NCBI GenBank assembly: GCA_002256115.1
Contig: NKIK01000015.1
Coordinates: 1-64,000 of the forward strand
Origin: Burkholderiales bacterium PBB3
Lineage (GTDB): Bacteria > Pseudomonadota > Gammaproteobacteria > Burkholderiales > Burkholderiaceae_C
DNA length: 64,000 bases
Direction of reading: 5' to 3'
Shown here piece by piece: positions 16,908 through 59,980 of this stretch (within the stretch, counting starts at the first letter, position 1; each line of letters opens with the position of its first letter). The notes under the pieces were generated by a model, which had not been told where the DNA came from, made no database searches, and saw nothing but the letters and a program-made list of their open reading frames with translations. The position numbers and the translations under genes are program-made.

Positions 16908-17103
16908 GGTTTCCTTTTTTACGGTGACTGAATGGGTTGTTTGGAGGGTGCGCTTAGGATGGATCGCGTGGCATTATTGGTTTGATACCACATTGTTCAT
17001 CTTAGATGCCACTATGCTACCAATTTTATGAATTTGCAATCGCTAAGTTGTATTGAGGTGGTATGGAAAACCCTAGTTTGTGGTTTTTTTGCTGTGCTGA
17101 TGT
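16908..17103. promoter_or_regulatory. Promoter region of the TonB receptor with TGGT/ACCA half-sites
   Basis: An imperfect palindrome TGGTTTGATACCA lies at 16978-16990, with a further TGGTAT at 17059-17064 and CTACCAATT near 17018. The region is AT-richer than its surroundings. Similar half-sites occur at 24646-24717 before the nag operon. This suggests operators for the HutC-type GntR protein encoded at 22996-23739, by inference from shared sequence only. Confidence 0.5.
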
Positions 17104-18048: not shown

Positions 18049-18057
18049 GGTGGCTCC

Positions 18058-19344: not shown

Positions 19345-19368
19345 GGTGATTGCCTAGGTAGAAAGAGA

Positions 19369-20856: not shown

Positions 20857-20868
20857 TCCTCAAATTCC

Positions 20869-42944: not shown

Positions 42945-43685
42945 CTAAGGGGCGAAATGGGCTGCGTCTGCAGGCCAGTAGATCGCAGTGTGTTCGGGCG
43001 ACCAGGGCTCAAATTTAGCCATAACCTGCGCAAACGCCGGGCTGGACTCGAACCCTTCTAACCAGCGCTGCAGCCAAGGCCAGGGCTGGCTAGCAAACCA
43101 GGCCCGGTCCGTATGCGCCCATTGGCGCACAAAGGGTGCAATGGCCGCATCTGCCAGGCCCCAGCGGTCCCCAGCCAGATTGCCCGAAGATGCCAAAGCC
43201 GCGTCGAGCGATGCTAGGAATACGCTGCCATGCGCACGGTCTGCCAGGCCATCGGGCAGGGCATAACGGTTGGGGTATTTGTAGCGGTCCAGGTGGGCTT
43301 TAAAAACGCCGTCGCAGGCGGCAATCCAGCCGCGCTGTAGGGCCTGCTGTTCGGGGCTTCGGAGCAACCAACCTAGGGGGTCACACTGGCCCAAAGCCCA
43401 CAGCATGATGTCCAGGCTTTGCTCCAGCACTTGGCCCTGCGGCAGTTGCAAAACAGGCACCGTGCCCTTGGGTGAAATCGCCAACATCTCGGCCGGTTTG
43501 CTGCGCAGGGCGACTTCTCGCAGCGCACACACCACGCCGCTGCTGAGCAGGGCCAGCCGCGCCCGCATGGCATACGGGCAGCGGCGAAAGCTGTACAAAA
43601 TGGGCGCTGGGGCGGTTCGCAAGGGCTTAGTGGGATTATTGGGTTTCGGGTAGGGGTAGCTTGGCACCAATATGGGTCTGCGCAC
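42945..43685 (-). CDS. Glutathione S-transferase-like protein
   Basis: The product has up to 246 residues. The thioredoxin-fold N-terminus holds Y-S-F-R-R-C-P-Y-A-M-R-A-R-L-A-L, with the CPYA active-site motif, and later L-E-Q-S-L-D-I-M. The C-terminal helical GST domain ends about residue 230. The start is uncertain: GTG at 43685 or 43667 overlaps trhO by 50 or 32 nt, and a TTG at 43622 would give a more usual N-terminus. It is the second gene of a probable trhO operon. Confidence 0.8.
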   Translation of the reverse strand: MRRPILVPSYPYPKPNNPTKPLRTAPAPILYSFRRCPYAMRARLALLSSGVVCALREVALRSKPAEMLAISPKGTVPVLQLPQGQVLEQSLDIMLWALGQCDPLGWLLRSPEQQALQRGWIAACDGVFKAHLDRYKYPNRYALPDGLADRAHGSVFLASLDAALASSGNLAGDRWGLADAAIAPFVRQWAHTDRAWFASQPWPWLQRWLEGFESSPAFAQVMAKFEPWSPEHTAIYWPADAAHFAP

Positions 43686-44580
43686 GCGACTTGGCCAGCT
43701 CCCACTGGCGTTGGCGTTCGCGGGCGCTGTCTTTTTGTGCCTGGCTGGTATGGGCGTGGCAGCGCGGGCAGCTCACGCCCGCTTCATACAGCGGCGATTC
43801 AGTGGCACCCTCGGGCAACGGCTGGCGGCAGGCGCGGCACAGCGCATGCGCGCCGGGCACCAGCGCGTGGCCCACTGATACGCGCTCGTCGAACACAAAG
43901 CACTCGCCTTCCCACAGGCTTTGCTCGGGCGGCACGGTTTCCAAGTATTTGAGGATGCCGCCTTCCAGGTGGTAGACCTCGTCATAGCCTAATGTCTTCA
44001 TCAGCGCGGTGGATTTCTCACAGCGGATACCACCGGTGCAAAACATGGCGACTTTGGGCTTTTTGTCAGCCGCCTTGCCCAGGCGTTCTGCGTCTTCCAC
44101 CCACTTCGGCAGCTCGGAGAAGGAACGGATATGGGGGTTCACCGCATGGGCGAAGCTGCCAATCTCCACCTCGTAGTCATTGCGCGTGTCCACCACCACC
44201 ACGTCCGGGTCCGATATGAGGGCATTCCAGTCGGCCGGTTTCACATACGTACCCGCCCCCTTGGTCGGGCTGATGCCCGGCACACCCAGGGTCACGATCT
44301 CCTTTTTAAGGCGTACCTTCATACGGTAAAACGGTGCGCGCTCTGACCAGGATTCCTTGTGTTGCAGGTCGGCGAACAGCGGGTCGCTGCGCAAATAAGC
44401 CAGCACTGCGTGTACGCCATCGGCGGGCCCGGCAATGGTGCTGTTGATGCCTTCGCGGGCCAGCAGAATGAGGCCTTTGACCGCATGTTGCTCGCACAGC
44501 GCCAACAAGGCCGGCTTGCGCTGCGCATAGTCCGGCAGGTCCACAAACTTGTAAAACGCGGCGGTCAGATAGGAGTCCAT
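43636..44580 (-). CDS. trhO: tRNA uridine(34) hydroxylase, rhodanese type
   Basis: The product has 314 residues. An N-terminal acylphosphatase-like domain carries L-A-R-E-G-I-N-S-T-I-A-G; a rhodanese domain has the cysteine in M-F-C-T-G-G-I-R-C-E-K. The C-terminal tail has zinc-like C-R-A-C and C-P-R-C. TrhO hydroxylates U34 of tRNA in an oxygen-dependent manner, giving 5-hydroxyuridine for wobble decoding. The ATG at 44580 is separated from the divergent cytochrome b gene by 150 nt. Confidence 0.93.
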   Translation of the reverse strand: MDSYLTAAFYKFVDLPDYAQRKPALLALCEQHAVKGLILLAREGINSTIAGPADGVHAVLAYLRSDPLFADLQHKESWSERAPFYRMKVRLKKEIVTLGVPGISPTKGAGTYVKPADWNALISDPDVVVVDTRNDYEVEIGSFAHAVNPHIRSFSELPKWVEDAERLGKAADKKPKVAMFCTGGIRCEKSTALMKTLGYDEVYHLEGGILKYLETVPPEQSLWEGECFVFDERVSVGHALVPGAHALCRACRQPLPEGATESPLYEAGVSCPRCHAHTSQAQKDSARERQRQWELAKSRAQTHIGAKLPLPETQ

Positions 44581-44730: not shown

Positions 44731-45591
44731 GTGGGTATACGGCACCAGAGTTTTTTGGAGTTCAAGCAGTACCGCTATCTCAAGTTGGCGGTTGCTTTGG
44801 TCCTTTTGGCGGTCGTGGCCTACGTGTGGCATCGCAACACCCGTTTCTTTGCGCCGGGAAATGTGGGCTACGGCGGCACCTGGATGGGTTACACCCTGGG
44901 CAGCATTGCCACCGCCCTGGTGGTGTGGCTGCTGTGGCTGGGGGTGCGCAAACGCCGCTACCGGGCCTCCAGTACATCTCTGCAGGGTTGGGTGTCTGCC
45001 CATGTGTACCTTGGCATTGCCACTTTGCTGATTGCTGTGTTGCACAGTGGCTTTGAGTTGGGTTTTAACCTGCATTCCTTTACGCTGATCTTGCTGGCTG
45101 CCGTGGTGATCAGCGGTATTTACGGTGTTTTTGTCTATGTGCGGGTGCCTCCCAACATGACCGACAAAATAGGCGAAGACAGCCTGGAAGGTTTGCTGCT
45201 GCAAATCCGCACCCTTGATGTACAGGCCCGCAAGGCGGCGCTGAGTCTGTCGGATGCGTTCAATAGTTTGCTGGTCAATGCGGCGCAGGACACGCGATTG
45301 AGTGGCTCCATTTTTGACGGATTGGGCGGCTTGAGGTTGCGTGCATGCCCCACTGATGTAGCTGTCCAGCAGATGCAAGTTCTGTTGCGTCAACTCAAAG
45401 CCGAGCATGTCGTTCTGGGGCGGGAGGTGTTCTCGCTGATGCTGAGCCGCCAGACCGCTGTGCGCGCGGTGCGCCTGGAGCTGCGGTCCATGGCAAGGCT
45501 CAAACGCTGGTTGATGTGGCATGTACCCATGTCAATCGCCTTGGTGGTGGCCTTGGCTGCACACATCGTGTCGGTTTTTATCTACTGGTGA
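44731..45591 (+). CDS. Five-helix diheme cytochrome b, membrane part of the multiheme operon
   Basis: The product has 286 residues from the GTG at 44731. Five hydrophobic helices lie near residues 15-33, 50-70, 88-106, 112-132 and 264-285. Helix 3 holds H91 and H105, helix 5 holds H264 and H278; both pairs are H-X13-H, the spacing of bis-histidine heme ligands in cytochrome b. Positive-inside analysis puts both helices in the same direction, so H91 can pair with H264 and H105 with H278, giving two hemes across the membrane. A soluble helical domain of about 120 residues precedes helix 5, probably cytoplasmic. It is the first gene of a seven-gene operon and a likely quinol oxidase/reductase entry point. 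I know no named family for it. Confidence 0.75.
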   Translation: MGIRHQSFLEFKQYRYLKLAVALVLLAVVAYVWHRNTRFFAPGNVGYGGTWMGYTLGSIATALVVWLLWLGVRKRRYRASSTSLQGWVSAHVYLGIATLLIAVLHSGFELGFNLHSFTLILLAAVVISGIYGVFVYVRVPPNMTDKIGEDSLEGLLLQIRTLDVQARKAALSLSDAFNSLLVNAAQDTRLSGSIFDGLGGLRLRACPTDVAVQQMQVLLRQLKAEHVVLGREVFSLMLSRQTAVRAVRLELRSMARLKRWLMWHVPMSIALVVALAAHIVSVFIYW

Positions 45592-45598
45592 GTCCCCC

Positions 45599-47401
45599 AT
45601 GATTCGCTGCAAACTCGTCGAAAGCTCGGTAGTCGATACTTCGCAAGGGACCACCGCGAACGTGGGGCGTATCGTTTCCGGGGAGACGCTGTCCATAGGG
45701 CGGGCGGCGTCTTCCAAAATCTATGTGCCAGACCCTTCTATCCGCTTGGACCATGCGTCCATTCACCGAGCCGAGGACGGTTTTTTGTATTTGCACGCCG
45801 CAGGGCCCGTGTCCGTTAACCAGCAAGTTCTGACCGACTGCAGGCTGGCTGTAGGGCAAACCATTGCGATTGGCCCCTATAGTTTTCACCTGGATGCTTT
45901 GGAGGACGGGCCGCAGACATCGGTAGCCAGCCTGACGCTCCTGTACCGATTGGATGAGTCCACTGCGGCGTCCGGGCAGGACATTGTGAGTCAATTGCAA
46001 GCGTCCAACCGTGCTGGGTTTTTTCAGCGCCGCTGGCTGGCGTGGTCTCTGGCTTGTCTGGTGGCCTTGTTTTGTGCGGCGCTCCCGATCCGGAATGCCT
46101 ACCAGCTGGCCGACACCCCGGCGGACCCGCGCTTGGCTGCAGAGACCTCGGCGTCGGGGGGGCTGAATACTTTCTGGAACCCGGGCCGTATATCGTCGGC
46201 GCACCAGAACTTTGGCAGTGCATGCGTTCAATGCCATGAAAAGCCTTTTCAGCGCGTGGCAGAAGCATCGTGCCAGGCCTGCCACACCTCGGTGGGCAGC
46301 CATATCGCAGACCCGCACCTAGAGCAATCCACCTTCGATGGCCAGCGTTGCGCGAGTTGCCACCGTGATCATCAGGGCCGCGATGGTATGAAAAAGGTGG
46401 ATGCTTTGGGTTGTGTGAGTTGCCACAGTGATGTCAAACACTATGCAGCGACGACGACTTTGCCCGATATTGCAGACTTCGCAGACTCTCACCCGGCATT
46501 CCGTTTGTCTATCGTGCAGGCAGATGCACAGGCAGATGTGCAGACAGATACGAAGCGCCGAGGCGGCAAAGTCGAGCGGCTGCTACAAACTGCAAGTCTC
46601 AAAAACGCCACGGGCTTGAAATTCCCACACGATATTCACATGGCCAAAGCGGGTATCAAGAGCCCGCAGGGCCCCAGCGCAAGCCAGGGGCGGCTGGTGT
46701 TGGAGTGCAGCAGTTGCCACACATTGGATGCTGCCGGCGTGCGCTATGCGCCTGTGAAAATGGAGCAGCATTGCCAGGGCTGCCACCAACTGGCCGTCGA
46801 TCCCCAAGCGCCCCAACGACAGGTTCCCCACGCCAAACCTGAGGTGGTTGCTTCGGCCGTGCGCGATATCTACGCTAGCTTGGCGCTGGACCGTTTCCCG
46901 TCCGAGCTGGTGACCGTTAACACGCTTTTGCAGCGGCCCGCAGGCCAAACTGCAGCGGGTATGTCGAGCAGTGCCGCGCGCTGGGTAGATACCCAAACCC
47001 AGAGCGCGCTGGTCTCCATGTTAGAAAAACCCAAGGGCGTTTGCTTGACCTGCCATCAAGTAACGCCAAAACCAGTAACACCCCAACAAAGCGGTGCAAC
47101 AGCTACCCGTGCTTGGGATATTGCGCCCCTAGTGTTCACCCAACACTGGTTACCCAAATCCAAGTTCTCCCATGCGCAGCATAAAAATGCAGCGTGCGCA
47201 GACTGCCATGCGGCCACTGCGTCCAAAGATTCCAGTGACATTCTGATTCCTGATATTGCGACCTGCAAAGGCTGTCATACCGGCTTGCATCCGGACAAGA
47301 GCAAGGTGGTCAGCACCTGCGACAGTTGCCACGGCTTTCACGCTGCGGTGCAACACCCGATTTTCAAGGAAGCTGCGCTGAAGCGCGGACCTGCACCGTG
47401 A
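45599..47401 (+). CDS. FHA domain fused to a membrane-anchored decaheme cytochrome c
   Basis: The product has 600 residues from the ATG at 45599, 7 nt after the cytochrome b stop. Residues 1-105 form a forkhead-associated (FHA) fold with L-S-I-G-R-A-A-S-S, D-H-A-S-I-H-R and N-Q-Q-V-L. A single transmembrane helix lies near 146-163. The rest holds ten CxxCH heme sites (first cysteine about residue 209, last about 574), CVQCH through CDSCH. FHA domains bind phosphothreonine peptides, so a cytoplasmic phospho-sensor seems joined to a periplasmic electron wire. I know of no characterised protein with this layout. The stop overlaps the next start by 1 nt. Confidence 0.82.
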   Translation: MIRCKLVESSVVDTSQGTTANVGRIVSGETLSIGRAASSKIYVPDPSIRLDHASIHRAEDGFLYLHAAGPVSVNQQVLTDCRLAVGQTIAIGPYSFHLDALEDGPQTSVASLTLLYRLDESTAASGQDIVSQLQASNRAGFFQRRWLAWSLACLVALFCAALPIRNAYQLADTPADPRLAAETSASGGLNTFWNPGRISSAHQNFGSACVQCHEKPFQRVAEASCQACHTSVGSHIADPHLEQSTFDGQRCASCHRDHQGRDGMKKVDALGCVSCHSDVKHYAATTTLPDIADFADSHPAFRLSIVQADAQADVQTDTKRRGGKVERLLQTASLKNATGLKFPHDIHMAKAGIKSPQGPSASQGRLVLECSSCHTLDAAGVRYAPVKMEQHCQGCHQLAVDPQAPQRQVPHAKPEVVASAVRDIYASLALDRFPSELVTVNTLLQRPAGQTAAGMSSSAARWVDTQTQSALVSMLEKPKGVCLTCHQVTPKPVTPQQSGATATRAWDIAPLVFTQHWLPKSKFSHAQHKNAACADCHAATASKDSSDILIPDIATCKGCHTGLHPDKSKVVSTCDSCHGFHAAVQHPIFKEAALKRGPAP

Positions 47402-49320
47402 TGATGACGCGATCTGTGCCTCGGGGCATTTCGGGCGGCTTTAGCGCCACGGCTTGGCTGCTGCTAGGGCTGTTGGCCACGGTGGGTTTGACAGCCTGCG
47501 ACGCCGGCGGAGCGGCCCCAAGCGCCGCGACGGCGGGTGATTGTGGCGGTGCCTGTGATCGCAATGCCCTGAGCGCGGTAGACGTGGAGCGGATTTTGGC
47601 GCAAACCGTGGTGGCTGCGCAGTCACGCGGCCACAAGGCTACGGTGGCTGTCACCGACAGGGTTGGCAATGTGTTGGGCGTATACGCCATGGATGGCGCA
47701 GCGCCCCAATTCCGCATTGACGGTGGGCGGGCTGTGGTCGGTGGGCTGGAAGGCATTGACATTTTGCCGAGTACGTTTGCAGCGATCAGCAAAGCGATCA
47801 CCGGGGCCTACTTGTCTAGTGCAGGGAATGCTTTCTCCACACGCACAGCGAGTCACATTGTCCAAGAGAACTTCAACCCTCTTGAGCGAAATCAACCGTC
47901 CGGTCCCTTGTTTGGTGTGCAGTTTTCGCAGTTACCTTGCTCCGATATCGTGCTGCGCCAAAGCGATGCACAGCGGGGCCCCAAGCGTTCCCCCTTGGGG
48001 CTTGCGGCAGACCCTGGGGGCTTGCCGCTTTACCGAGATGGTCAAGTGGTGGGCGGAATCGGCGTGATCAGCGATAGTGTCTACGGGCTAGATTTGGATA
48101 TCTCCAATGTAGACAACGACGCCGACGAAGGTTTGGCCATTGCCGGTAGTGCAGGTTTTTGGGCACCCGAGGGGGTGCGGGCCAACCGGATTACGGCAGA
48201 TGGCAGATCCTTGCGTTACACGGATGCGACGGATGCCAGTGCCACAGCGGGCACCTCCAATGTCAACACCTTGGTGGGCTTGCCGGGGAGCCTGATGGCA
48301 GTGCCCCAATATTTCTCCGGTGCAATTCGGGCAGGTACTGCGTATGGTGTGGCTGCTTCAGGTATCCGAGCGGATGCCGGTGTATTCGCAGATTTAGGTG
48401 GGCACATTTTGGTAGATGCCGCCAATGCCAACCGGTATCCTGCCATCGCGGGCAGTGATGCCATTTTGGCGGCAGCCGAGGTTCAGCAAATTTTGCGTTC
48501 CGCTCTGGGCGTTGCGAATGCGGCCCGCGCGCAAATCCGTGCACCTGCCGGACAGGCGGCCCAGGTCACTGTATCGGTGGTGGATACGCAGGGCGAAGTC
48601 TTGGGTGTGGTGCGGTCGCCCGACGCACCGATTTTTGGTATTGATGTAGCGCTGCAGAAGGCGCGCAGCGCGGCCTTTATGTCCAATCCTGAGGCGGCAG
48701 CAGAGTTACAAAATCTGCCGCCAGCCAATTATTTGAAGCCGGTTGCCACATCGGCCATTGCGCCCTATGTGAGCGATCTGCGCAGGCTGCTGTCGAGCCC
48801 CACGGCCCTGGCCGATGGCACCGCCTACAGCACCCGTACACTGGGCAATTTGGCCCGGCCTTTTTTGCCGGACGGCGTGTTGTCGGCCACTCCGGGGCCT
48901 TTGTCTAAAAGCTACCCCCAGTGGAGCCCCTTCAGCACGGGCCTGCAGCTGGATTTGAGTTTGAATGCGATTGTGGCCGCTGCAGGCGGCAGCTTGGCCA
49001 GTGGCTGCACCGGCTTGCCCCGGTTGAAGAATGGCTTGCAGATATTTCCCGGAGGTATTCCGATTTACCGCACTACTGCGGGGGTGACTCGGTTGGCAGG
49101 CGCGATAGGTGTGTCCGGTGATGGGGTGGACCAGGACGACATGATTGCCTTTTTAGGTCTCAGCCGAGCTGCGTCTATTTTGGATAGCGGCGTTGGTCAG
49201 GCTCCAACTGCTTTGCGGGCAGACCGTATTGTGTTGCCCGGTGGAAATTTGCGTTACGCCCAATGCCCACAGGCTCCGTTCAATGCCAGTAGCGAGCAAA
49301 ACGTATGCGCTGGGCTATGA
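47401..49320 (+). CDS. Lipoprotein with two GlcG/HbpS-like domains
   Basis: The product has 639 residues from the ATG at 47401 (TGATG overlap with the previous stop). The signal ends in lipobox L-T-A-C, so it is lipid-anchored. Two copies of the GlcG/HbpS fold are seen: L-A-Q-T-V-V-A-A-Q-S with A-V-T-D-R-V-G-N-V-L-G-V near residue 90, and V-Q-Q-I-L-R-S-A-L with V-V-D-T-Q-G-E-V-L-G-V near 400. Such domains bind heme or small ligands in other bacteria. No CxxCH is present. Its gene lies between a decaheme cytochrome and an outer-membrane barrel. The function is not known. Confidence 0.72.
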   Translation: MMTRSVPRGISGGFSATAWLLLGLLATVGLTACDAGGAAPSAATAGDCGGACDRNALSAVDVERILAQTVVAAQSRGHKATVAVTDRVGNVLGVYAMDGAAPQFRIDGGRAVVGGLEGIDILPSTFAAISKAITGAYLSSAGNAFSTRTASHIVQENFNPLERNQPSGPLFGVQFSQLPCSDIVLRQSDAQRGPKRSPLGLAADPGGLPLYRDGQVVGGIGVISDSVYGLDLDISNVDNDADEGLAIAGSAGFWAPEGVRANRITADGRSLRYTDATDASATAGTSNVNTLVGLPGSLMAVPQYFSGAIRAGTAYGVAASGIRADAGVFADLGGHILVDAANANRYPAIAGSDAILAAAEVQQILRSALGVANAARAQIRAPAGQAAQVTVSVVDTQGEVLGVVRSPDAPIFGIDVALQKARSAAFMSNPEAAAELQNLPPANYLKPVATSAIAPYVSDLRRLLSSPTALADGTAYSTRTLGNLARPFLPDGVLSATPGPLSKSYPQWSPFSTGLQLDLSLNAIVAAAGGSLASGCTGLPRLKNGLQIFPGGIPIYRTTAGVTRLAGAIGVSGDGVDQDDMIAFLGLSRAASILDSGVGQAPTALRADRIVLPGGNLRYAQCPQAPFNASSEQNVCAGL

Positions 49321-51092
49321 ACCGCTTGGGTGTGGCGACTGCGATGCTGGCTTGCTGTGGCGTGCAGGCCCAGTCACCCGCGCCCATCAAGCCGGCCGAT
49401 GGCGCAGAGGCTGCCATAGAGCTGCGCAGAGCCCAGACGACACCCTTGGAGTACCAGCTTCCGCCGATTGACCCAGCGCAGGTGCCACCTCCCAAAGCAT
49501 GGGACCCCAGAGCGAGTATTCCCGTACCGGATCGCTGGCGCATCATGGAATCCTTGGGCGTGAACGATGTCTGGTGGGACCCTTACAACCAGAACACGAT
49601 CAAGGGGGATAAGCCTTGGCAGCGTTTGAAGGATTGGGGACCTGACTGGTTTTTGGCCTTGGGTGTGATCTCGGATTCTTTGGTGGAACTGCGCCGTGTG
49701 CCTACGGGTGTTGGCGTGCAATCCAGTGAGTCACCCGGCAGCAGCAATGTGTTTGGCAGGGACAGCCAAAACACGATTGCGCAAACGCTGATCGTCAGTG
49801 CATCCTTGATCAAAGGCAACACCACGTTCAAGCCACCGGATTACGAGTTCAAGTTTGCCGGTGCTTTTAACTTGAACCGTACGCGTGTGGATGAGGTGCG
49901 CGGTGTCAATGTCAATCCGCTGTACGGCACCATTCGCAATGACAATTTCTTTGGCGTGCAGGAGGCGTTCGTTGATGTGCATTTGCGCAACGTGTCTGAT
50001 GCTTACGACTTTGACTCAGTGCGTGTCGGTATTCAACCCTTCAATGCCGACTTTCGTGGGTTCTTGCTGAATGACTCCGTGCTCGGCGTTCGACTCTTTG
50101 GCAACCGCGATAGCAATGTATGGCAGTACAACTTGGGCTGGTTTCGGCGGTTGGAAAAGGACACCAATTCTGGGCTCAACAACATCAGCCGCGAAGTCCG
50201 TGCAGACGATAGCTTGGTCGCATCGGTGTACCGACAAGATTGGCCGGTACTCGGCCACACGACCCAGGCCACGGTGGTCTACAACACCAATCGCGAAGGC
50301 GATCAGCGCGATTTCTATGACAACAATGGCTTGAAAGTGCGCCCGGCCGTCATCGGTGATGTACGACCGCACAATTACGACGTTGCATATTTGGGCCTGA
50401 ATGGTGATGGTCACTTTGGTAAGTGGAATCTCACCTCATCTGCCTATCTTGCACTGGGACGCTGTAGCTATGACGCCCTGTCGCAAAAGGCGCAATCGAT
50501 TGAAGCGACTTTTTTGGCTGCCGAGTTGTCGCGAGATTTTGATTGGCTGCGTGTGCGCGCCAGTGCGCTCTATGCCAGTGGTGATACGAACCCGCTGGAC
50601 GACAAAGCTACAGGCTTTGACGCCATTCTTGAAAACCCACAATTTGCGGGTGCCGACACCAGCTACTGGATTCGCCAATCGGTGGCGCTGATTGGCGGTG
50701 GCGGTGTAGCCTTGTCTGGGCGCAATGGAGTGCTGGCCAGTTTGCGCTCGTCTAAAGATCAAGGGCAGTCCAATTTTGTCAATCCTGGGCTCAAACTTTT
50801 GGGCGTTGGGGTAGATGCAGATTTGACACCCCAACTGCGGGTTTTGGGCAACCTATCTTGGTTATCGTTTGACGACACCAAGGTGTTGCAGATTCTGCGA
50901 AACCAAGCACCGATTGCCAAAGAAATCGGTACCGACGTTTCGGTGGCTCTCCAGTACCGCCCTTACATGACGCAAAACGTGGTGTTGAGTGCCTCTGTGG
51001 CATGGCTGGAACCTGGGCGTGGTTATAAAGATTTATATGCCAGCGCTGACCGCCCATACTCCTTACTCGTCAATATGACCTTGACTTTCTGA
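49317..51092 (+). CDS. Outer-membrane beta-barrel protein of the multiheme operon
   Basis: The product has 591 residues from the ATG at 49317 (ATGA overlap); an ATG at 49305 would add four residues. A signal peptide ends G-V-Q-A-Q. The remainder is rich in alternating aromatic/polar strands and ends M-T-L-T-F, the C-terminal phenylalanine of outer-membrane barrels. The mature N-terminus is proline-rich. It could be the porin sheath of a porin-cytochrome conduit by analogy with MtrB. However, I see no MtrB-type CxxC and no clear sequence match to that family. The barrel call is good, the family unknown. Confidence 0.68.
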   Translation: MNRLGVATAMLACCGVQAQSPAPIKPADGAEAAIELRRAQTTPLEYQLPPIDPAQVPPPKAWDPRASIPVPDRWRIMESLGVNDVWWDPYNQNTIKGDKPWQRLKDWGPDWFLALGVISDSLVELRRVPTGVGVQSSESPGSSNVFGRDSQNTIAQTLIVSASLIKGNTTFKPPDYEFKFAGAFNLNRTRVDEVRGVNVNPLYGTIRNDNFFGVQEAFVDVHLRNVSDAYDFDSVRVGIQPFNADFRGFLLNDSVLGVRLFGNRDSNVWQYNLGWFRRLEKDTNSGLNNISREVRADDSLVASVYRQDWPVLGHTTQATVVYNTNREGDQRDFYDNNGLKVRPAVIGDVRPHNYDVAYLGLNGDGHFGKWNLTSSAYLALGRCSYDALSQKAQSIEATFLAAELSRDFDWLRVRASALYASGDTNPLDDKATGFDAILENPQFAGADTSYWIRQSVALIGGGGVALSGRNGVLASLRSSKDQGQSNFVNPGLKLLGVGVDADLTPQLRVLGNLSWLSFDDTKVLQILRNQAPIAKEIGTDVSVALQYRPYMTQNVVLSASVAWLEPGRGYKDLYASADRPYSLLVNMTLTF

Positions 51093-51093
51093 C

Positions 51094-54000
51094 ATGAAAA
51101 CTCGGTTCATCAAGTCTTCGGTGTTGTGGTCTTCCGCCTTGCTGGCGCTGGTGTTTCTGGGCTTCGTGCTAGGGTTTTCGCAGGCCCATTCTGAAACCCA
51201 AAGCAACGCTGCTAGTGTGCGTGCACCCATGATGGCTCCGTCGGCACCTAAGACCCAGACCGTCGAGCAAGCGCTGGCAAAATCCCAAGGCTGCGAGAGC
51301 TGTCACCAATACAGTCCGGGCGCGAATGATCATCGCACTATGCACGCCAACCCTGGCGTTGTTTTGGGTTGCACCGATTGCCACGGCGGCAACGCTAGCA
51401 TCCGCATTCCCGATACGTCGAAACAGGGGACTGCGGCCTACGCAGACGTCGTTAAACAGGCCCATGTATTGCCCGGAACCCAGGTGCAGTGGAATGGCCC
51501 CTCCAGCGCCAACCCCAAAGGCAGCTATACCCGCCTGAACCGACAGACCCCGGAGTTCATTCGTTTCATGAACCCCGGCGATATGCGGGTCGCCCGCGAG
51601 GCCTGCGGTGCCTGCCATTTGCCCATCATTCAGGCCAGTGAGCGCAGCCTGATGTCCACCAGCGCCATGTTGTGGGGTGGCGCGGCCTATAACAACGGCA
51701 TCCTGCCCTATAAGCGCTATGTATTGGGTGAGGCCTACACCAGTGACAGCCTGCCGGCGATGCTGAAGAACCCCACTCCGGTAAGCGCTCATATGCGCGA
51801 TATGGGCATCTTGGAGAGTCTGGCACCTTTACCCGCGTGGGAAACGGTGGCTCCTGCGGACGTGTTCCGCGTGTTTGAGCGTGGTGGCAAGATCAATGGC
51901 ACCCAGTTTCCTGAAATCGGATTGCCCAATTCAACCGGCATGCTGCAGAAACTGGATGAACCGGGTCGGCCCGACGTCCGCCAGTCCAACCGGGGGCCTG
52001 GCACGGGCAACCGTATTGCTGTGCCGCTGATCAATGTTACCAAGACCCGGTTGAACGATCCGCATCTGTGGTTTCTGGGGACTGGTGAGCAGCCGGGTGA
52101 TTACCGCTCGTCGGGATGCACGGCCTGCCACACGCCTTACGCCAATGACCGCGACCCCCAGCATTCCGGGCCCTATGCCAAGCGTGGCCACGAAGGTAAA
52201 ACGGCTACGTCTGATCCGACGATTCCCAAAGACGAGTCCGGCCATCCCATCTCGCACCAGTTCACCCGAGCGATACCGTCTTCGCAGTGCATGGTGTGTC
52301 ACATGCACCAGCCGAATATTTTTGTGAATTCCTTTTACGGAACCACGATGTGGGACTACGAAGCCGATGCCCCCTTCATGTGGCCCAAGGAACAGAAGTA
52401 CCCCAGCGTCGCAGAGTCTCGCAAAATACTAGACCGTAACCCCGAGGAGGCTGCCACCCGAGGACTGTGGGGAGACCCCGAGTTTTCCAAGCGCGTGTCA
52501 GAGCTCAATCCACAACTCAAAGACACGCAGTTCGCTGATTACCACGGGCACGGATGGAACTTCCGCGCCATTTTCAAGCGGGACCGCAAGGGCACTTTGG
52601 TGGATGCCAAGAATCAAGCGGTAGCAGACGACGATCCGCAAAAATTCAAGAAAGCCGTGCACCTGAAATCAGTGCATCTGGATGTAGGCATGCACTGTGT
52701 GGATTGCCACTTCTCGCAGGATATGCATGGCAACGGGCATATTTATGGCGAGGTCGCAGCGGCGATCGAGGTGGACTGCAAGGATTGCCATGGCAGCGCA
52801 GGCAAGTACCCCACCTTGACCACATCAGGCCCAGCGGCCAAACCGGGTGGCACTGACATGGCACTGCTGCGCACACCGGACGGCCGCAAGCGCTTTGAGT
52901 GGCGCGAAGGCAAGCTGTACCAGCGCTCTGCAGTCGAGCCCGGCCTGGAGTGGGAGATGTCTTTGGTAAAAGACTCAGTAACCCCCGGCAATGCCAAGTA
53001 CAACGAAAAGGCGGCGCGTGCCAAATTGATGCATGCGGGGGCCAGTGGGCAAGACGGAAAGTGGGGTGCGGCATCGGCCTCAGAGGCCTACGCCCACAGT
53101 GACGACAAAATGCAATGCCATTCTTGCCACACCTCCTGGACCACCAGCTGCGCGGGTTGCCATTTGCCCATTCAGGCCAATGCCAAAACCGAGCGCCAGC
53201 ACTATGAAGGCGGAGAAACTCGCAATTACGCCAGTTACAACCCCCAGGTGGCACGCGATGACATGTTTCAACTGGGCAAGCAGGGCTCGGTGAAAGGCGG
53301 CAAGACCGTGCCGGTACGTTCAAGCTCGGCGCTGCTTTTGTCCTCTACCAATATCAACCGCGAGAAAATTTACATCCAACAGGCCCCCATTGCCGCCAGC
53401 GGGTTTTCTTCGCAGGCATTCGCGCCGCATTACCCGCACACCGAGCGAAAAACAGAAACCAAGACCTGCTCAGACTGCCACGTCAACCGCGACAACGACA
53501 ACAACGCCATCATGGCCCAGCTGCTGTTGCAGGGCACAAATTTCGTCAACTTTGTCGGCTACAACGCCTGGGTGGGCGAGGCAAATCACGTCGAGGCCGT
53601 GCAGGTGACCGAATGGGATGAACCCCAAGCAGTGATTGGCAGTTATCTGCACCGTTACGCCTACCCCGATTGGTTTAAAGATCACCAGAGGGCTGAAAGC
53701 AAACTTGCCACTGCGTTTGATCACAGTACCCAAGGTGCCGCGAACTGCATTCAACAGCGGGGGGAGTACCTTTTTGCCGCAGAAGGGGCCGGTGGTTTGC
53801 GGGTCTATGACGTGGCCGGTATCGCCAATAAAGGGGTCTCTCAGCGCATCATCACGGCACCTTTTTCGGCACTGGGACACAACACGCATGTGCAGTCGGC
53901 CCATGCCAGCTGCGTGGCCTTACCCACCAACCAGCCCATTGCACCACTGCGCAATACCGGGGAGCTGATGCGCATCACCAACCAAGAGCAAGCTTTTCAC

Positions 54001-54915
54001 CCCATTTACAGCTACGCCTTTGTGACCGACGCCAAGGAAGGCCTGATTCTGGTGAATGTAGATACCCTGGCAGACGGTGAACCACGCAACAACTTCTTGC
54101 GCCGAGCCCTGACGTGGAACGGTGGCACTAGCCATCCTGGCGTGCTGAGCGGTGCACGACACATTACCGTGGGTGGGCACTATTTGTATATCACGACTAC
54201 TCAAGGATTGGTGGTGATCGATGTGGACCAGCCATTGCAACCACAATGGGTAGCGACTATCCCCATGAAAGACGCACGGGCTAGTGCCTTGCAGTTCAGA
54301 TACTTGTGGGTAACCACAGCCCAGGGGCTGGAGTTAGTCGACGTGACAACACCCTCACGTGCGATGTTGGTCAGCGATGCGCTGATACCGCTTGCGGACG
54401 CCCGCAAGGTCTATGTGGCGCGGACCTACGCGTATGTGGCCGCAGGAGCCGCGGGCTTGGTCATCGTTGATGTCGAGAGGCCGACGCAGCCCAAGATTGC
54501 AAGCCGGGTGCAAAAAGGCAGCTCTGCCAGTACTTCACTGTTGGATTCTCAAGACGTTATTGTCGGATCTACCAATGCGTCTTTGTTTGCCTATGTCGCG
54601 GATGGGGCGCATGGCATCAAGGTCATTCAGCTCACTGCGCCAGACAGTCAGCCCAAGTTTTATGGATTCTCTCCGGAGCCCAAGCCCCAGGTCATTGCTT
54701 GGCGCCCAAGTCAGTCGCGCGCTTTGTCTTTATCCAAGGGGCTGGATAGAGACCGTGCCGTTGATGAAACCGGAGGGCAGATTGCCGTGTTTGGGCGTAT
54801 TGGGTCCCGCCCATTCAATGCCGCGGAAATGGGCAAACTCTATTTGCGCAAAAACGGAACGGTGTGGACGGTGACCGATACACCCGGCACCAGCTATTCC
54901 AACGTTGGACGATAA
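51094..54915 (+). CDS. Decaheme cytochrome c fused to an LVIVD-repeat beta-propeller
   Basis: The product has 1273 residues. A signal peptide or anchor helix lies at residues 8-30. Ten CxxCH sites run from residue 67 (CESCH) to about 792 (CSDCH), unevenly spaced with a gap of about 200 residues around 180-400. The C-terminal 400 residues hold six LVIVD-type repeats such as G-L-V-V-I-D-V-D-Q-P and G-L-V-I-V-D-V-E-R-P, forming a probable beta-propeller. LVIVD repeats occur in secreted or surface proteins. It begins 1 nt after the barrel gene stop. It may be a periplasmic or surface-exposed reductase or oxidase. The substrate is unknown. Confidence 0.85.
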   Translation: MKTRFIKSSVLWSSALLALVFLGFVLGFSQAHSETQSNAASVRAPMMAPSAPKTQTVEQALAKSQGCESCHQYSPGANDHRTMHANPGVVLGCTDCHGGNASIRIPDTSKQGTAAYADVVKQAHVLPGTQVQWNGPSSANPKGSYTRLNRQTPEFIRFMNPGDMRVAREACGACHLPIIQASERSLMSTSAMLWGGAAYNNGILPYKRYVLGEAYTSDSLPAMLKNPTPVSAHMRDMGILESLAPLPAWETVAPADVFRVFERGGKINGTQFPEIGLPNSTGMLQKLDEPGRPDVRQSNRGPGTGNRIAVPLINVTKTRLNDPHLWFLGTGEQPGDYRSSGCTACHTPYANDRDPQHSGPYAKRGHEGKTATSDPTIPKDESGHPISHQFTRAIPSSQCMVCHMHQPNIFVNSFYGTTMWDYEADAPFMWPKEQKYPSVAESRKILDRNPEEAATRGLWGDPEFSKRVSELNPQLKDTQFADYHGHGWNFRAIFKRDRKGTLVDAKNQAVADDDPQKFKKAVHLKSVHLDVGMHCVDCHFSQDMHGNGHIYGEVAAAIEVDCKDCHGSAGKYPTLTTSGPAAKPGGTDMALLRTPDGRKRFEWREGKLYQRSAVEPGLEWEMSLVKDSVTPGNAKYNEKAARAKLMHAGASGQDGKWGAASASEAYAHSDDKMQCHSCHTSWTTSCAGCHLPIQANAKTERQHYEGGETRNYASYNPQVARDDMFQLGKQGSVKGGKTVPVRSSSALLLSSTNINREKIYIQQAPIAASGFSSQAFAPHYPHTERKTETKTCSDCHVNRDNDNNAIMAQLLLQGTNFVNFVGYNAWVGEANHVEAVQVTEWDEPQAVIGSYLHRYAYPDWFKDHQRAESKLATAFDHSTQGAANCIQQRGEYLFAAEGAGGLRVYDVAGIANKGVSQRIITAPFSALGHNTHVQSAHASCVALPTNQPIAPLRNTGELMRITNQEQAFHPIYSYAFVTDAKEGLILVNVDTLADGEPRNNFLRRALTWNGGTSHPGVLSGARHITVGGHYLYITTTQGLVVIDVDQPLQPQWVATIPMKDARASALQFRYLWVTTAQGLELVDVTTPSRAMLVSDALIPLADARKVYVARTYAYVAAGAAGLVIVDVERPTQPKIASRVQKGSSASTSLLDSQDVIVGSTNASLFAYVADGAHGIKVIQLTAPDSQPKFYGFSPEPKPQVIAWRPSQSRALSLSKGLDRDRAVDETGGQIAVFGRIGSRPFNAAEMGKLYLRKNGTVWTVTDTPGTSYSNVGR

Positions 54916-54926
54916 GGGGATCCTCA

Positions 54927-56288
54927 GTGAACACACTACGTTGTTGGTTGGTAGCAGTTGCGTTCTTGGCGGTGTGTGCTGGTACTTCAATTGCCCAAAA
55001 TCTACCGGACAGGTCAATGGACAAGACATTGGGGGTGGTGACCTGTGCCAGTTCTTTGTGTCACGGGTCCATTGCACCCTGGAATGGTTCTCTCGTGTCA
55101 CAAAATGAGTATGTCGTCTGGTCTCGGTTGGACAAACATGCTCGCGCCTATAAGCTGTTACTGAACGAGCAATCCAAACGCATTGCAGCCAAGTTGGGTT
55201 TGGCGGCACCGGCCCACGAGTCCAAAGTGTGTTTGGATTGCCACGCTCACAATCCTTTGCAGTCCAAGACCGAGCACCACATCAGCGATGGTGTTGCGTG
55301 CGAAGCTTGCCACGGCGGGGCGGAGCGCTGGATCGGCACCCACACCGAGGCCGGCAACAGCCACGCAAAAAACCTCGCCAACGGCATGTATCCCAGTGAT
55401 CAGCCCTTGGCGAGAGCGCAGCTGTGTTTATCCTGCCATTTCGGCGACACCGAAAAGTACGTCACACACCGAATGATGGCCGCGGGTCACCCTCGGTTGA
55501 GCTTCGAATTGAACACGTTTACCAGCTTGCAACCCGCGCATTTCAAGGTGGACACCGACTACGTGCAGCGCAAGGGAACGGTGGACGGCGTCAAAATCTG
55601 GTCTGTGGGACAGGCGGTGGCAGTGGCAACACAGCTGAGCATTCTGATGGACCCTAAGCGTGGGCGTGACGGCGCATTCCCTGAACTCACTTTGTTTGAT
55701 TGCCATGCCTGCCACCATCCGATGGCGGATACACGCTGGACACCGAGGACGACTTTGGGTAGCAATCAGGGGCCAGGTTTGGTGCGTTTGAATGACTCCA
55801 GTATTTTGATGTTGTATTTGATACTGCGGCAGACCGAGCCAGCTTCGGCCGAGAATTTCAAATTGGCGGTGTCTCAATTGAACCAAGCGATTGCAGGACG
55901 CGGCGACATGGCTGCGTCTGCCGCGACTCTGAAAATACAAGCCCAGGCGGCTGCACAAAAGTTGAGTCAATCTGGAATGACGGATGCGCAGCTCGCGGGC
56001 GTAGCGCTGTTGCTGGTGGATGACGGCCTAAACGGTAGCTATTCGGACTACGCGGGTGCGGAGCAGGCGACCATGGCCCTGGGTAGCGTGGTGAGCCTCT
56101 TGAATCAGCAGGGCAAGCTCAAGTCTGCGGCCGAAATGAACCGTGGTCTGGCGAGCTTGCGGGCTTCGCTAGTCAACGATGAAAAATTTAAGCCCTCGGA
56201 ATTTCAGCTGCGATTGCGGGCTATTCGCCCGCAATTGGTATCGGGGATTACCAAACAGAACGCTCCTAAGGAACAGGGTAGGCCATGA
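54927..56288 (+). CDS. Periplasmic pentaheme-type cytochrome c
   Basis: The product has 453 residues from the GTG at 54927, with AAGGGGA upstream. A signal peptide ends S-I-A-Q. Four CxxCH motifs (CLDCH, CEACH, CLSCH, CHACH) are preceded by C-A-S-S-L-C-H near residue 40, a CX4CH spacing. If that binds heme, the protein has five hemes, resembling cytochrome c554-like electron carriers. The C-terminal 200 residues have no heme sites and are helical. The 3' end overlaps the oxidoreductase gene as ATGA. Confidence 0.8.
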   Translation: MNTLRCWLVAVAFLAVCAGTSIAQNLPDRSMDKTLGVVTCASSLCHGSIAPWNGSLVSQNEYVVWSRLDKHARAYKLLLNEQSKRIAAKLGLAAPAHESKVCLDCHAHNPLQSKTEHHISDGVACEACHGGAERWIGTHTEAGNSHAKNLANGMYPSDQPLARAQLCLSCHFGDTEKYVTHRMMAAGHPRLSFELNTFTSLQPAHFKVDTDYVQRKGTVDGVKIWSVGQAVAVATQLSILMDPKRGRDGAFPELTLFDCHACHHPMADTRWTPRTTLGSNQGPGLVRLNDSSILMLYLILRQTEPASAENFKLAVSQLNQAIAGRGDMAASAATLKIQAQAAAQKLSQSGMTDAQLAGVALLLVDDGLNGSYSDYAGAEQATMALGSVVSLLNQQGKLKSAAEMNRGLASLRASLVNDEKFKPSEFQLRLRAIRPQLVSGITKQNAPKEQGRP

Positions 56289-58795
56289 CCTATAAAGTCG
56301 CCATTGTGGGATCAGGTCCTGCCGGTTTATCGGCTGCAGCGCACGCTGCCAAGTTGGGCTTGAGTCATATTCTGTTGGAGGCACAAGCGCACCTGAGCGA
56401 TACCATTTACAAGTACCAAAAGGGTAAGCATGTCATGGCCGAGCCGGGATTCTTGGATCTGCGCAGCCCAGTGCAGTTTCAGGCAGGAACCCGAGAAAGT
56501 ATTCTGCAAAGCTTTGGCAATGATGTGGCTAGCTTCGGTGTGAATGTGCAATATGGGGCGGTGGTGTCTGGCATTCAGGGAAGCAAGGGCAATTTTCAGA
56601 TTGCACTCGACAACACAGAAGTCATCGTTGCGGAATATGTGATTTTGGCGATTGGTGTCCAGGGCAATTTGCGCACCTTGGGGGTGCCAGGGGATGGTTT
56701 GAAAAATGTCCAGTACCAGCTGGACGATCCTGCGGCTTATGGCGGTGAAACCATTATTGTGGTGGGTGCCGGTGATGCAGCGATTGAGAATGCGCTGGCG
56801 TTAGCGGAGAACAATAACAGTGTCATTTTGTTGAACCGCAATGAGGAGTTCAGTCGCTGCAAGGAAGGCAATTTGACCGCTGTTCAAGCAGCCATTGGCG
56901 CGGGGAAAATGGCCTGCCGCTATCTCACCAGTATTGATCACATTGATCGTCTGGAAACGCAAAGCGACGATACGGACATGAACCGTACCATGATGGTTTC
57001 CGTTGTTGATCTGTCGCGACGTCAGACTCCCAAAGCGCAAAAGCCCGGTCTGCAGGTCACGCTCAATACGGCGGTGGGTGAAGAAGTCATTGCGTGCCAT
57101 CGCGTCATTGGCAGGTTGGGAGCTATTGCCCCGCGCAAGCTGGTGGAGGGATTTGGTGTCCGCTTCACAGGCAAAGAGGCTACGGCCTTGCCTGCACTGT
57201 CACCCACCTACGAGTCCAACGTCCCTGGTTTGTATGTCGTTGGCGCTTTGGGTGGCTACCCGCTCATCAAGCAGGCTATGAATCAAGGCTACGAGGCCGT
57301 AGAGGCTCTGTGTGGTCGGATCGTAGTGCCTGCAGATCAGCCGCTTTTGGAGCAAAAGTTTGCCGCACTGATGCGCGCGCGCAGTCAACTGACCAGTGTG
57401 GATAGTGTGCTGGAGGAGGTGGCCAGAAGTGCGCCGTGGTTAGCGAGTTTGAGTGCACTGCAATTGCGCGAGTTTTTGTTGGAAAGCGATATCCGTTTAC
57501 CTGCAGCGGGATCTGTCATCTTTGCTCGCAACGATTACACCAATTCATTTTTCAGTATCGTAGGCGGGTCTGTGCGGATAGTGTCAGACGATTCTGCCGG
57601 GCCGTCTGTTGAGTTGGATGCCGGCAAGTTTTTTGGTGAGTTGGGCTTGATATCCGGTAGGCGAAGGTCTGCAACGGTGCTGGCGGGGGGCGATTGTTTT
57701 TTGGTGGAAACGCCAAGGCGTGCAATGTTGAAGCTACTGGCCTCGTCCGAGTCGGTGCGCAGGGAGCTGGATCTCGTGGCTTTGCGCCGTGCCGTTCGAA
57801 AGTACGTGGCAGCCAGTTTGTCGGAGGAGCAACTGACCCAGCTGTTAGAAGGTGCACAAATTCGCCATTACAAAGCGGGCGATGCGCTGTTTCTGGAGGG
57901 CGATACGTCGGACGGTTTGTACCTGATTCGCAAGGGCTCAGTCATGGTTTCTCGGACCATCGGCGGTCGCGATGTGGTGCTGTCCTATGTTTCCGCAGGA
58001 AATTACGTGGGCGAAATGGCCTTGATGCTGGATGCCCCTCGTTCGGCCACCGTGCGGGCGGCGGTACCGTCAGAAGCTATTGTGTTGCTGGCGACCAAAG
58101 TAACCGAGGTGCTTGCCCAAAATACCGGTCTGCGCCAGCAGCTAGACGGCCAGTACTTATCGCGTTTGCAAGCGAATCAGGTGATGAAAGCCGATGAAAA
58201 GTCCGGTAATTTAATTTCCTTTCTGTTGCAGCAAGGCGTCGGAGAAGCGACCGATGTTTTGTTGATTGATGAATCGCTATGTATTCGCTGTGACAACTGT
58301 GAGAAGGCCTGTGCGGACACCCATGGTGGCGCTTCCCGGCTGGATCGTGAGGCAGGTCCGACCTACGCGAATTTGCATGTGCCAACCTCATGCCGCCACT
58401 GCGAGCACCCGCATTGCATGAAGGATTGCCCGCCGGATGCCATTAAGCGCTCTGCGGGTGGTGAGGTTTATATTTCTGACACCTGTATCGGTTGCGGCAA
58501 TTGTGAGAAAAATTGCCCTTACGGTGTGATTCAAATGGTCCCTGCTGCCGAAAAGAAGGGTATCAATAGTCTGTGGGCATGGTTGTTGTTTGGCCTCGGC
58601 CAAGAGCCTGGTGCCAAGGCCATTGGCGCAGAGACTTACGACAAGTCCAAGTCTTCTGGGATCAAGAAGGCCGCCAAGTGCGATATGTGCCGCGATTTGG
58701 ATTCAGGGCCTGCCTGCGTGCGCGCATGTCCAACGGGTGCCGCGCTGCGTATTAGTCCAGAAAAATTTCTGGACTATGTCGGCACCAAAAATTAA
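56285..58795 (+). CDS. FAD/NAD(P) oxidoreductase fused to two cyclic-nucleotide-binding domains and a four-cluster ferredoxin
   Basis: The product has 836 residues. Residues 1-345 form a thioredoxin-reductase-like flavoprotein: V-G-S-G-P-A-G-L-S-A at the start and a second nucleotide loop V-G-A-G-D-A-A-I-E-N, but no redox CxxC between them. Two cyclic-nucleotide domains lie at about 397-500 and 525-620, with phosphate cassettes F-G-E-L-G-L-I-S-G...R-S-A and V-G-E-M-A-L-M-L...R-S-A. From about 660, four cysteine clusters (CIRCDNC, CRHCEHPHC, CIGCGNC, CDMCRDL...C) resemble HybA/DmsB-type ferredoxins. No signal peptide, so cytoplasmic. It could feed NAD(P)H electrons to the membrane cytochrome under cNMP control. 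This is inference. Confidence 0.85.
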   Translation: MTYKVAIVGSGPAGLSAAAHAAKLGLSHILLEAQAHLSDTIYKYQKGKHVMAEPGFLDLRSPVQFQAGTRESILQSFGNDVASFGVNVQYGAVVSGIQGSKGNFQIALDNTEVIVAEYVILAIGVQGNLRTLGVPGDGLKNVQYQLDDPAAYGGETIIVVGAGDAAIENALALAENNNSVILLNRNEEFSRCKEGNLTAVQAAIGAGKMACRYLTSIDHIDRLETQSDDTDMNRTMMVSVVDLSRRQTPKAQKPGLQVTLNTAVGEEVIACHRVIGRLGAIAPRKLVEGFGVRFTGKEATALPALSPTYESNVPGLYVVGALGGYPLIKQAMNQGYEAVEALCGRIVVPADQPLLEQKFAALMRARSQLTSVDSVLEEVARSAPWLASLSALQLREFLLESDIRLPAAGSVIFARNDYTNSFFSIVGGSVRIVSDDSAGPSVELDAGKFFGELGLISGRRRSATVLAGGDCFLVETPRRAMLKLLASSESVRRELDLVALRRAVRKYVAASLSEEQLTQLLEGAQIRHYKAGDALFLEGDTSDGLYLIRKGSVMVSRTIGGRDVVLSYVSAGNYVGEMALMLDAPRSATVRAAVPSEAIVLLATKVTEVLAQNTGLRQQLDGQYLSRLQANQVMKADEKSGNLISFLLQQGVGEATDVLLIDESLCIRCDNCEKACADTHGGASRLDREAGPTYANLHVPTSCRHCEHPHCMKDCPPDAIKRSAGGEVYISDTCIGCGNCEKNCPYGVIQMVPAAEKKGINSLWAWLLFGLGQEPGAKAIGAETYDKSKSSGIKKAAKCDMCRDLDSGPACVRACPTGAALRISPEKFLDYVGTKN

Positions 58796-58797: not shown

Positions 58798-58848
58798 CAG
58801 CCATCGCCCAAGCCATTTTGTTGGCTTGTGCGATGCTGATTGATTTTT
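58798..58848. terminator. Terminator hairpin between the multiheme operon and dnaJ
   Basis: Arms 58798-58814 and 58823-58838 (CATCGCCCAAGCC / GGCTTGTGCGATG, one mismatch, extended by CAG/CTG) enclose an 8-nt loop. A T-rich tail follows on the plus strand (58844-58848). It ends the cytochrome operon and lies before the convergent dnaJ stop, so it may serve both directions. Confidence 0.75.
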
Positions 58849-59980
58849 AACTGAACAGGTTCTTCAAGCGGTCGGTCCAGCTATCACCCGATGGTGAATG
58901 CTTGCTGCCGCCTTTTTTGAACGATTCGTCCAGTTCGCGCATCAGCTTGCGCTGGTGCTCACTGAGCTTGACCGGCGTTTCTACTGAGATGTGGCAATAC
59001 AAGTCACCCGGATAGCTGGCGCGCACGCCCTTGATGCCCTTGCCACGCAGGCGGAATTGCTTGCCGCTTTGCGTACCCTCGGGGATGTCAATGGCCGCTT
59101 TGCCAGCCAGCGTAGGTACTTCAATCTCGCCACCCAGCGCAGCCGTCACCATGCTGATGGGCACGGAGCAATGCAGGTCATCGCCATCGCGCTCAAAGAT
59201 GTCATGCTTCTTGATGCGGATCTCGATATACAGATCGCCCGGTGGCCCGCCATTGGTGCCCGGCTCACCATTGCCCGCCGAGCGAATGCGCATGCCACCG
59301 TCGATACCAACGGGAATTTTGACTTCCAGGGTCTTCTGGCGCTTGATCTTGCCTTGGCCGCTGCAAGCGGTGCAAGGTTCGGGAATCACTTTGCCCGTGC
59401 CACGGCAGGTGGGGCAGGTTTGCTGCACGCTAAAAAAGCCCTGGCGCATTTGCACAGTGCCAGCACCACTGCAGGTGCCGCAGGTCTTGACCTGGGTGCC
59501 TGGCTTGGCACCTGAGCCTTTGCAGACCTCGCAGTTGTCCCAGCTCGGAATGCGGATCTGGGCGTCCTTACCCTTGGCGGCTTCTTCCAGTGTGATTTCC
59601 ATCGCGTAGCTCAGGTCGCTGCCGCGAAACACCTGGCGTCCGCCAGCGCCTGCGCGCCCGCGTTGCTGGCCAAACATGTCGCCAAAAATATCGCCAAAGG
59701 CTTCGGCAAAACCACCGTAGCCATCGGCGCCGCCGCCACCGCGGTTGGGGTCGACTCCGGCATGGCCGTATTGGTCATAGGCCGCGCGTTTTTGCGCGTC
59801 CGAGAGCATCTCGTAGGCTTCTTTGCCTTCCTTAAATTTCTCTTCGGCCACCTTGGAGGTGTCACCCTGATTGCGGTCAGGGTGGTGCTTCATCGCCAGC
59901 TTGCGATAGGCCTTTTTGATGTCTTCCTCGGTAGCGTTCTTGGGAACGCCCAGAGTTTCGTAATAGTCTCGTTTGGCCAT
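58847..59980 (-). CDS. dnaJ: Chaperone DnaJ
   Basis: The product has 377 residues. The J domain (1-70) has the H-P-D motif. A Gly/Phe-rich linker (75-115) follows, then four zinc repeats [24 protein letters not shown] and CTACSGQG, and the C-terminal substrate-binding domain. DnaJ stimulates DnaK ATPase and delivers unfolded clients. The gene is third in the grpE-dnaK-dnaJ order, 105 nt after dnaK. Confidence 0.97.

Follow-up and report, generated by a model that had tools for sequence, protein, structure and literature searches.

A conserved seven-gene multiheme cytochrome operon with a predicted NAD(P)H entry module in Burkholderiales bacterium PBB3 and other Proteobacteria

Seven packed genes and their products

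The window analyzed here is a stretch of 64,000 nucleotides from Burkholderiales bacterium PBB3 (contig NKIK01000015.1, positions 1 to 64,000 of the forward strand). Between 44731 and 58795 it carries seven genes on the plus strand, here named G1 to G7, whose reading frames are all open and tightly packed, as a preliminary description of the same sequence had recognized. The junctions comprise gaps of up to 11 nt and overlaps of up to 4 nt, or 16 nt with the first ATG of G4: G1 and G2 (start at 45599) are 7 nt apart, G2 and G3 overlap by 4 or 1 nt (G3 start at 47398 or 47401), G3 and G4 overlap by 4 nt (G4 start at 49317) or 16 nt (first ATG at 49305), a single nucleotide separates G4 from G5, 11 nt lie between G5 and G6 (start at 54927; with the in-frame GTG further upstream, at 54864, the two genes would overlap), and G6 and G7 overlap by 4 nt. 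The 24 CxxCH heme motifs and single CX4CH of the preliminary description were also recovered on recounting, with ten CxxCH in G2, ten in G5 and four in G6, the last of which further carries the CX4CH site CASSLCH. Its view of a single electron-transfer unit that combines a diheme b-type protein, multiheme cytochromes and a barrel is supported by the sequence.

Three of the products, G7, G1 and G2, form a putative inner module. G1 (44731..45591, 286 residues) is a likely inner-membrane diheme cytochrome b-like protein, judged from hydropathy, motifs and a weak family match. At the E-value of 0.01 used for all reported Pfam matches it has no family, and at a relaxed E 5 it matches Ferric_reduct at E 0.025 with 15.1 bits, below the cut-off of 28. 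The motif WX3HX13H occurs twice in 22 of 22 aligned rows and SGXXG in 21 of them, and a plain hydropathy window finds five hydrophobic segments in the window protein and four or five in the other rows. G2 (45599..47401) joins an N-terminal FHA-like domain, one hydrophobic segment and a decaheme c-type cytochrome domain (Pfam FHA and Cytochrome_C7/Cytochrom_c3_2); its ten heme sites are invariant in 22 proteins, one site taking the form CX4CH in one row. All these alignments begin at script-chosen start codons, by which a few N-termini are cut (e.g., L012 in the G2 alignment).

G7 (56285..58795) is a fusion of a TrxR/YpdA/FNR-like FAD-NAD(P) domain with two cyclic-nucleotide-binding (cNMP) domains and a 4Fe-4S domain, recognized from Pfam (Pyr_redox_3, two cNMP_binding stretches, 4Fe-4S), NCBIfam and alignment. 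Its parts resemble YpdA, TrxR and ferredoxin-NADP reductase (3ab1 being a relative of the FAD domain) and the iron-sulfur (FeS) subunits of HycB type. The nucleotide-binding motifs are kept in a 22-row alignment together with 16 invariant Cys, which would suffice to hold four 4Fe-4S clusters, and the sequence supports NAD(P)H as the likely donor. The preliminary description had named NAD(P)H or quinones; for quinones the sequence speaks neither for nor against. The best NCBIfam match of G7 is YpdA (108.1 bits against a cut-off of 339.9). YpdA carries a Cys at the loop that reads GSGPAG in the window protein, and since this Cys is missing there, an assignment of G7 as a thioredoxin or bacillithiol reductase was dropped.

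The remaining four products would make up an outer module. G3 (47401..49320) is a putative lipoprotein with HbpS/GlcG-like domains; its Pfam family is HbpS-like, its relatives in the PDB are EfgA/HbpS-like, and it carries the motif LTAC, which we take to be a lipobox. G4 (49305..51092 from its first ATG, the alternative ATG being at 49317) has no Pfam family at E 0.01, nor even at E 5; its AlphaFold2 model has 18 strands and finds AlgE and Occ channels as fold relatives, which points to an outer-membrane beta-barrel. G5 (51094..54915, 1273 residues) unites a decaheme c-type cytochrome with an LVIVD beta-propeller at its C terminus, as read from Pfam (LVIVD and multiheme families), heme motifs and alignment, with ten CxxCH in 67 of 72 proteins and nine in the other 5; its fold-search lists are filled by propeller matches. 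G6 (54927..56288) is a cytochrome c554-like protein, matching Pfam Cytochrome_C554 and, at E 4.1e-06, cytochrome c554 in the PDB, and all five of its heme sites are kept in 20 of 20 aligned proteins.

Gene order, co-occurrence and probable acquisition

A search through one genome from each species, with an alignment of 12 G5 sequences as query, returned at least 585 G5 relatives among 594 candidate stretches. The best 80 of these were analyzed as loci, a set in which close relatives are over-represented and many loci are cut by contig ends. Their record titles are mainly alpha-, beta- and gamma-proteobacterial, some being implausible bin labels (Bordetella parapertussis, Klebsiella pneumoniae, Marinimicrobia, Vicinamibacteria). 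All seven genes are present in 39 of the 80 loci, and six in 24; the other 17, many of them truncated at contig ends, have at most five. Two main orders, circular permutations of one another, are found: G1-G2-G3-G4-G5-G6-G7, as in the window (16 loci exactly), and G7-G1-G2-G3-G4-G5-G6 (15 exactly), with 15 further loci that follow the G7-first order without G6. In 69 loci every detected gene lies on the strand of G5. The homologues are thus not scattered without a common order, a pattern that the preliminary description had said would count against it. Its claim that the operon has no recognized counterpart gives way, since homologous operons of shared order are widespread and a similar, unnamed cluster type appears in the available portion of a 2026 metagenome paper (PMC13264449). 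As both the heme sites and the gene order recur across related loci, they are not a product of chance.

The reach of the operon is illustrated by a genome from another family of the same order (G058), which has the full set in the window's gene order, and by records named Limnobacter (L020, Limnobacter alexandrii), Duganella, Steroidobacter, Parahaliea and Sphingobium; among the matches listed, the closest named G5 relatives are labelled Rhodoferax sp. Protein clusters matched number at least 7998 for G5 at E 1e-20 and at least 7303 for G7 at E 1e-60. A conserved small protein precedes G3 in L059 (5485-5988), where it has no Pfam family, and also in L037, L039, L041, L047, L054, L060 and L081.

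The two modules can come apart. In a plasmid collection G5 occurs in 13 records, 12 from Sphingobium and one from Sphingopyxis. On plasmid pMSHV of Sphingobium herbicidovorans, G6-G3-G4-G5 and G7-G1-G2 form separate, opposite units, and on pMC4 of Sphingopyxis indica the outer module stands alone within the 36 kb read. In genome G151 (L096:6092-17319), G7-G1-G2 and two G6-like genes are accompanied by a five-heme cytochrome of another kind and a 568-residue protein, called barrel-like from a reading of its sequence end. Given the separate modules of pMSHV and the alternative outer partners in G151, the inner module can apparently work with more than one kind of outer module. In a further genome of the same class, G172, G5 and G7 each occur twice, spread over two contigs.

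Among 369 genomes of the class, the host's own included, G5 is found in 13 and G7 in 16, all 13 lying within the 16 (Fisher test, p ~2e-21, for genomes that are not independent of one another). Of the three with G7 and no G5 match, L097 is cut by a contig end, L095 is a short contig, and L096 is the true variant described above. In the phylum set, G5 occurs in 11 of 398 genomes, again with the host's own. All 14 operon-bearing genomes tested have COX1, but since 8 of 14 control genomes have it too, it says little about the operon. Parts, motifs, gene order and co-occurrence can all be read directly from these records.

How the host came by the operon is suggested by its surroundings. On the minus strand it is flanked by a rhodanese-like trhO (43636-44580) on one side and by dnaJ (58847-59980), followed by dnaK (60086-62044), on the other, all three names being read from translations. 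The trhO-dnaJ spacing is 14.3 kb in the window, with the operon in between; of eight congeners, two have 118 and 171 bases, five have 1.5-1.6 kb, and one has the two genes on different contigs. Close G7 homologues were found in none of 36 same-genus genomes, which gave two weak matches of 33-34% identity. With the short spacing in congeners, the simplest reading is that the operon was gained as one block at trhO/dnaJ, loss elsewhere being the alternative.

Proposed direction of electron flow and its possible control

From these parts we infer cofactors, localization, order and direction of flow, and regulation. We lean, with moderate confidence, toward a trans-envelope electron-export chain that is fed by NAD(P)H and reduces an acceptor outside the cell. 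Cytosolic G7 would oxidize NAD(P)H at its FAD and pass the electrons through four 4Fe-4S clusters to G1, the diheme b membrane protein spanning the inner membrane; from there they would reach the membrane-anchored decaheme domain of G2, then the periplasmic pentaheme G6, and then the decaheme-propeller G5, which would form a pair with G4, the barrel in the outer membrane, and reduce the external acceptor. G3 would be an accessory of the outer module. Outward flow is favored because NAD(P)H is a low-potential donor.

The preliminary description had further proposed that the chain is gated by cyclic nucleotides and phosphopeptides. Cyclic-nucleotide control of G7, which would tune electron input, is possible: cassette 1 has its Glu and Arg in 22 of 22 proteins, cassette 2 has Arg in 22 but Glu in 18, and both look intact in the window. 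Support for phosphopeptide gating is weak. The FHA domain of the window's G2 passes its Pfam threshold (25.3 against 20.7), and known FHA proteins, GarA among them, are matched by the G2 profile. Yet 2 of the 22 aligned proteins (those of Duganella and Limnobacter) lack the domain, and the position presumed to bind phosphothreonine is Ser in 1 of the 19 rows that cover it. An obligatory phosphopeptide gate was therefore dropped, and the FHA domain may only help assembly.

Several points weigh against the export chain. The direction of flow is argued solely from NAD(P)H as the low-potential donor, and the named isolates with the operon are, to our knowledge, mostly not known for metal respiration. 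MtrB is a barrel of 26 strands and the G4 model, with its AlgE/Occ-like fold, has fewer, so that a heme wire through G4 is doubtful. G5 is the most conserved member, with a median identity to the window of 67-71% against 31-54% for its partners (on partly different row sets), a pattern that suits a specific enzyme better than a wire.

The last two observations lend themselves to another account, that of a reductase, periplasmic or at the outer membrane, which is served by a dedicated solute channel: G4 would admit a small acceptor, an oxyanion or organic compound, and G5 would reduce it inside the outer membrane with NAD(P)H electrons delivered by the same chain, an arrangement closer to the Geobacter ext cluster than to Mtr. 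It would explain the barrel model and the very high conservation of G5 past its heme motifs, where 13 further His are conserved at 99% or more. It also draws on a weak match of G5 to the NCBIfam model ExtM (E 4.1e-19) and on ExtI, which the available portion of a Geobacter study argues to be a selective channel (PMC5877670). The ExtM score of 68.3 bits, however, falls far below the cut-off of 800, no other Ext family is listed for G1, G4 or G6, and the adjacency of G4 and G5 is equally consistent with porin-cytochrome pairs; this is a serious rival, if on the whole an unlikely one. An assignment of G5 as a known multiheme enzyme was dropped, as it has no NCBIfam model above cut-off and no sequence relative in the PDB at E 1.

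The flow could also run inward, G5 and G4 taking electrons from an external donor such as Fe(II) and G1 passing them on to quinone or, if energy is put in, to NAD(P)+. Flavin-FeS proteins can work in both directions. G1 carries the inner-membrane motif of the porin-cytochrome (PCC) types PCC3 and PCC4, for the latter of which an inward direction is proposed in the part of He et al. (2017; PMC5566968) available to us. Electrons from a surface donor would have to go uphill to reduce NAD(P)+, however, and among the PCC-carrying metagenome-assembled genomes (MAGs) covered in the available text of PMC13264449 just 3 of 36 have a carbon-fixation pathway. We regard inward flow as quite improbable.

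The neighbouring genes raise a last alternative, in which the chain senses NAD(P)H or the redox state of the envelope and talks to nearby kinases, phosphatases and cyclases. Among gamma-type loci, 15 have a relative of a PP2C phosphatase and 13 one of an FHA protein of L057 (domains read for L057 only), a kinase follows further on in L057, and CHASE2-cyclase relatives lie near modules in 4 loci; HbpS, moreover, is a redox-sensor family. Most loci, and the window as well, nevertheless lack such neighbours, and 25 heme sites with a predicted four FeS clusters are a large outlay for a sensor, which makes a signalling device highly improbable.

In L057 itself, the stretch past G6 (14889-23624) encodes the PP2C phosphatase, a double-FHA protein, an autotransporter, a Ser/Thr kinase and a caspase-like Sel1 protein. 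A CHAT protein, a CHASE2-guanylate cyclase and a ShlB/FhaC secretion protein adjoin modules in L009 (1-12641) and L008 (1256-8920), and L009 also has a 2092-residue protein without a Pfam match beside its modules. Across the 80 loci, TpsB and CHAT are each near 2, and the host's four CHASE2 genes lie elsewhere in its genome. With CHASE2, TpsB and CHAT found near 4, 2 and 2 loci, they are occasional neighbours only and were dropped as parts of the system. Genes resembling ccm, named from sequence, stand beside several loci, with CcmI-like genes in 9, CcmA/CcmB-like genes in 7 and CcmC-like genes in 5; loci so flanked are L007, L012, L013, L014, L016, L020, L021, L026, L032 and L074. The host genome has CcmB, and both observations speak for the export chain.

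Should the export chain be correct, many bacteria with aerobic-type oxidases would hold a dedicated relay from NAD(P)H to the outer membrane, its gene order kept across records titled alpha-, beta- and gamma-proteobacteria. Extracellular electron transfer has mostly been studied in metal-respiring specialists. We can envisage, as a bolder and rather doubtful proposal, a distinct class of envelope electron-export machines in oxygen-respiring Proteobacteria, which draw on NAD(P)H instead of quinol and are tuned by cyclic nucleotides. Such a machine might rid the cell of excess reductant at its surface by way of an AlgE-like barrel and a heme-propeller protein, with oxygen (yielding superoxide), Fe(III) or Mn(IV), or an organic compound as conceivable acceptors. 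It would be a bacterial analogue of NADPH oxidase built from cytochromes.

Comparison with known electron-transfer systems

In the open-access literature searched, we found neither a functional study of the seven-gene operon nor a characterized operon with these seven members; the available portions of PMC13322032 and PMC11475568 deal with other clusters or do not name it. The nearest description is that of the unnamed "group 1" in PMC13264449, where, in the text available, 11 clusters have a decaheme gene of 4-5 kbp adjoining a porin of ~20 strands, and 7 of the 11 have a ferredoxin-NADP+ reductase gene near. The operon likewise places a large decaheme gene beside a barrel, and the FAD domain of G7 is related to the ferredoxin-NADP reductase 3ab1. 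The same text reports a Limnobacter MAG that carries a PCC, and the operon occurs here in Limnobacter alexandrii (L020). The window's G5 is 3.8 kb and its G4 model has 18 strands, however, and the seven-gene unit and its domains are absent from that portion of the description. By likeness of description, group 1 is probably the same system.

By its gene layout the operon fits the PCC kind in the broad sense, as the barrel gene G4 adjoins the gene of the multiheme cytochrome G5 in the window and in most loci; passage of electrons through the outer membrane to the outside, the other mark of this kind, is what the export chain would predict. PCC4, as given in the available part of He et al. (2017; PMC5566968), shares with it a barrel, three multiheme cytochromes and an inner-membrane protein. 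Two WX3HX13H and SGXXG are there presented as the signature of the PCC3/PCC4 inner-membrane protein, which is compared with ferric reductase and NADPH oxidase, and G1 has all its elements (five predicted transmembrane segments, both motif copies, SGXXG). In subgroup II of PCC4, a PF13247 FeS protein is encoded upstream of the inner-membrane protein, a further likeness (PMC5566968). The operon departs from PCC4 in its heme numbers (10, 10 and 4+1 rather than 4, 5 and 10), in the fusion of its FeS domain to FAD and cNMP domains, and in its HbpS-like lipoprotein. The Geobacter selenite/tellurite cluster extHIJKLMNOPQS, as far as PMC5877670 is available, resembles the operon in its barrel, several multiheme cytochromes and a b-type cytochrome, alongside the subthreshold ExtM similarity of G5. 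No Rieske family (ExtO) is among the matches listed for the seven proteins at E 0.01, and G6 has no match to the selenoprotein ExtKL at E 5.

MtrCAB, MtoAB and PioAB each pair a multiheme cytochrome with a barrel, as the operon does, and the G2 profile matches chain 6r2q_A over 66 positions at E 5.1e-06 (listed under another molecule name), an entry that we take to be MtrCAB. They differ in that G4 lacks a Pfam match, MtrB/PioB-family barrels included, in its AlgE-like model, whose 18 strands agree with this, and in the likely input of NAD(P)H rather than quinol. MtrB is not among the 50 fold matches listed for G4, with which a distant relation is still compatible; the MtrA/DmsE-family decaheme model TIGR03508 gives 16.8 bits in G2 and 15.6 in G6 against a cut-off of 192.2. 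In NADPH oxidase and ferric reductase, electrons pass from NAD(P)H over FAD to two b hemes across the membrane. The operon would have this route in common with them, the Ferric_reduct match of G1 staying below the family cut-off, and would differ by its FeS clusters between FAD and b hemes and its c-type cytochromes onward. Set against all of these, the operon is a variant of the porin-cytochrome kind that is widespread and conserved and has a predicted entry module for NAD(P)H electrons.

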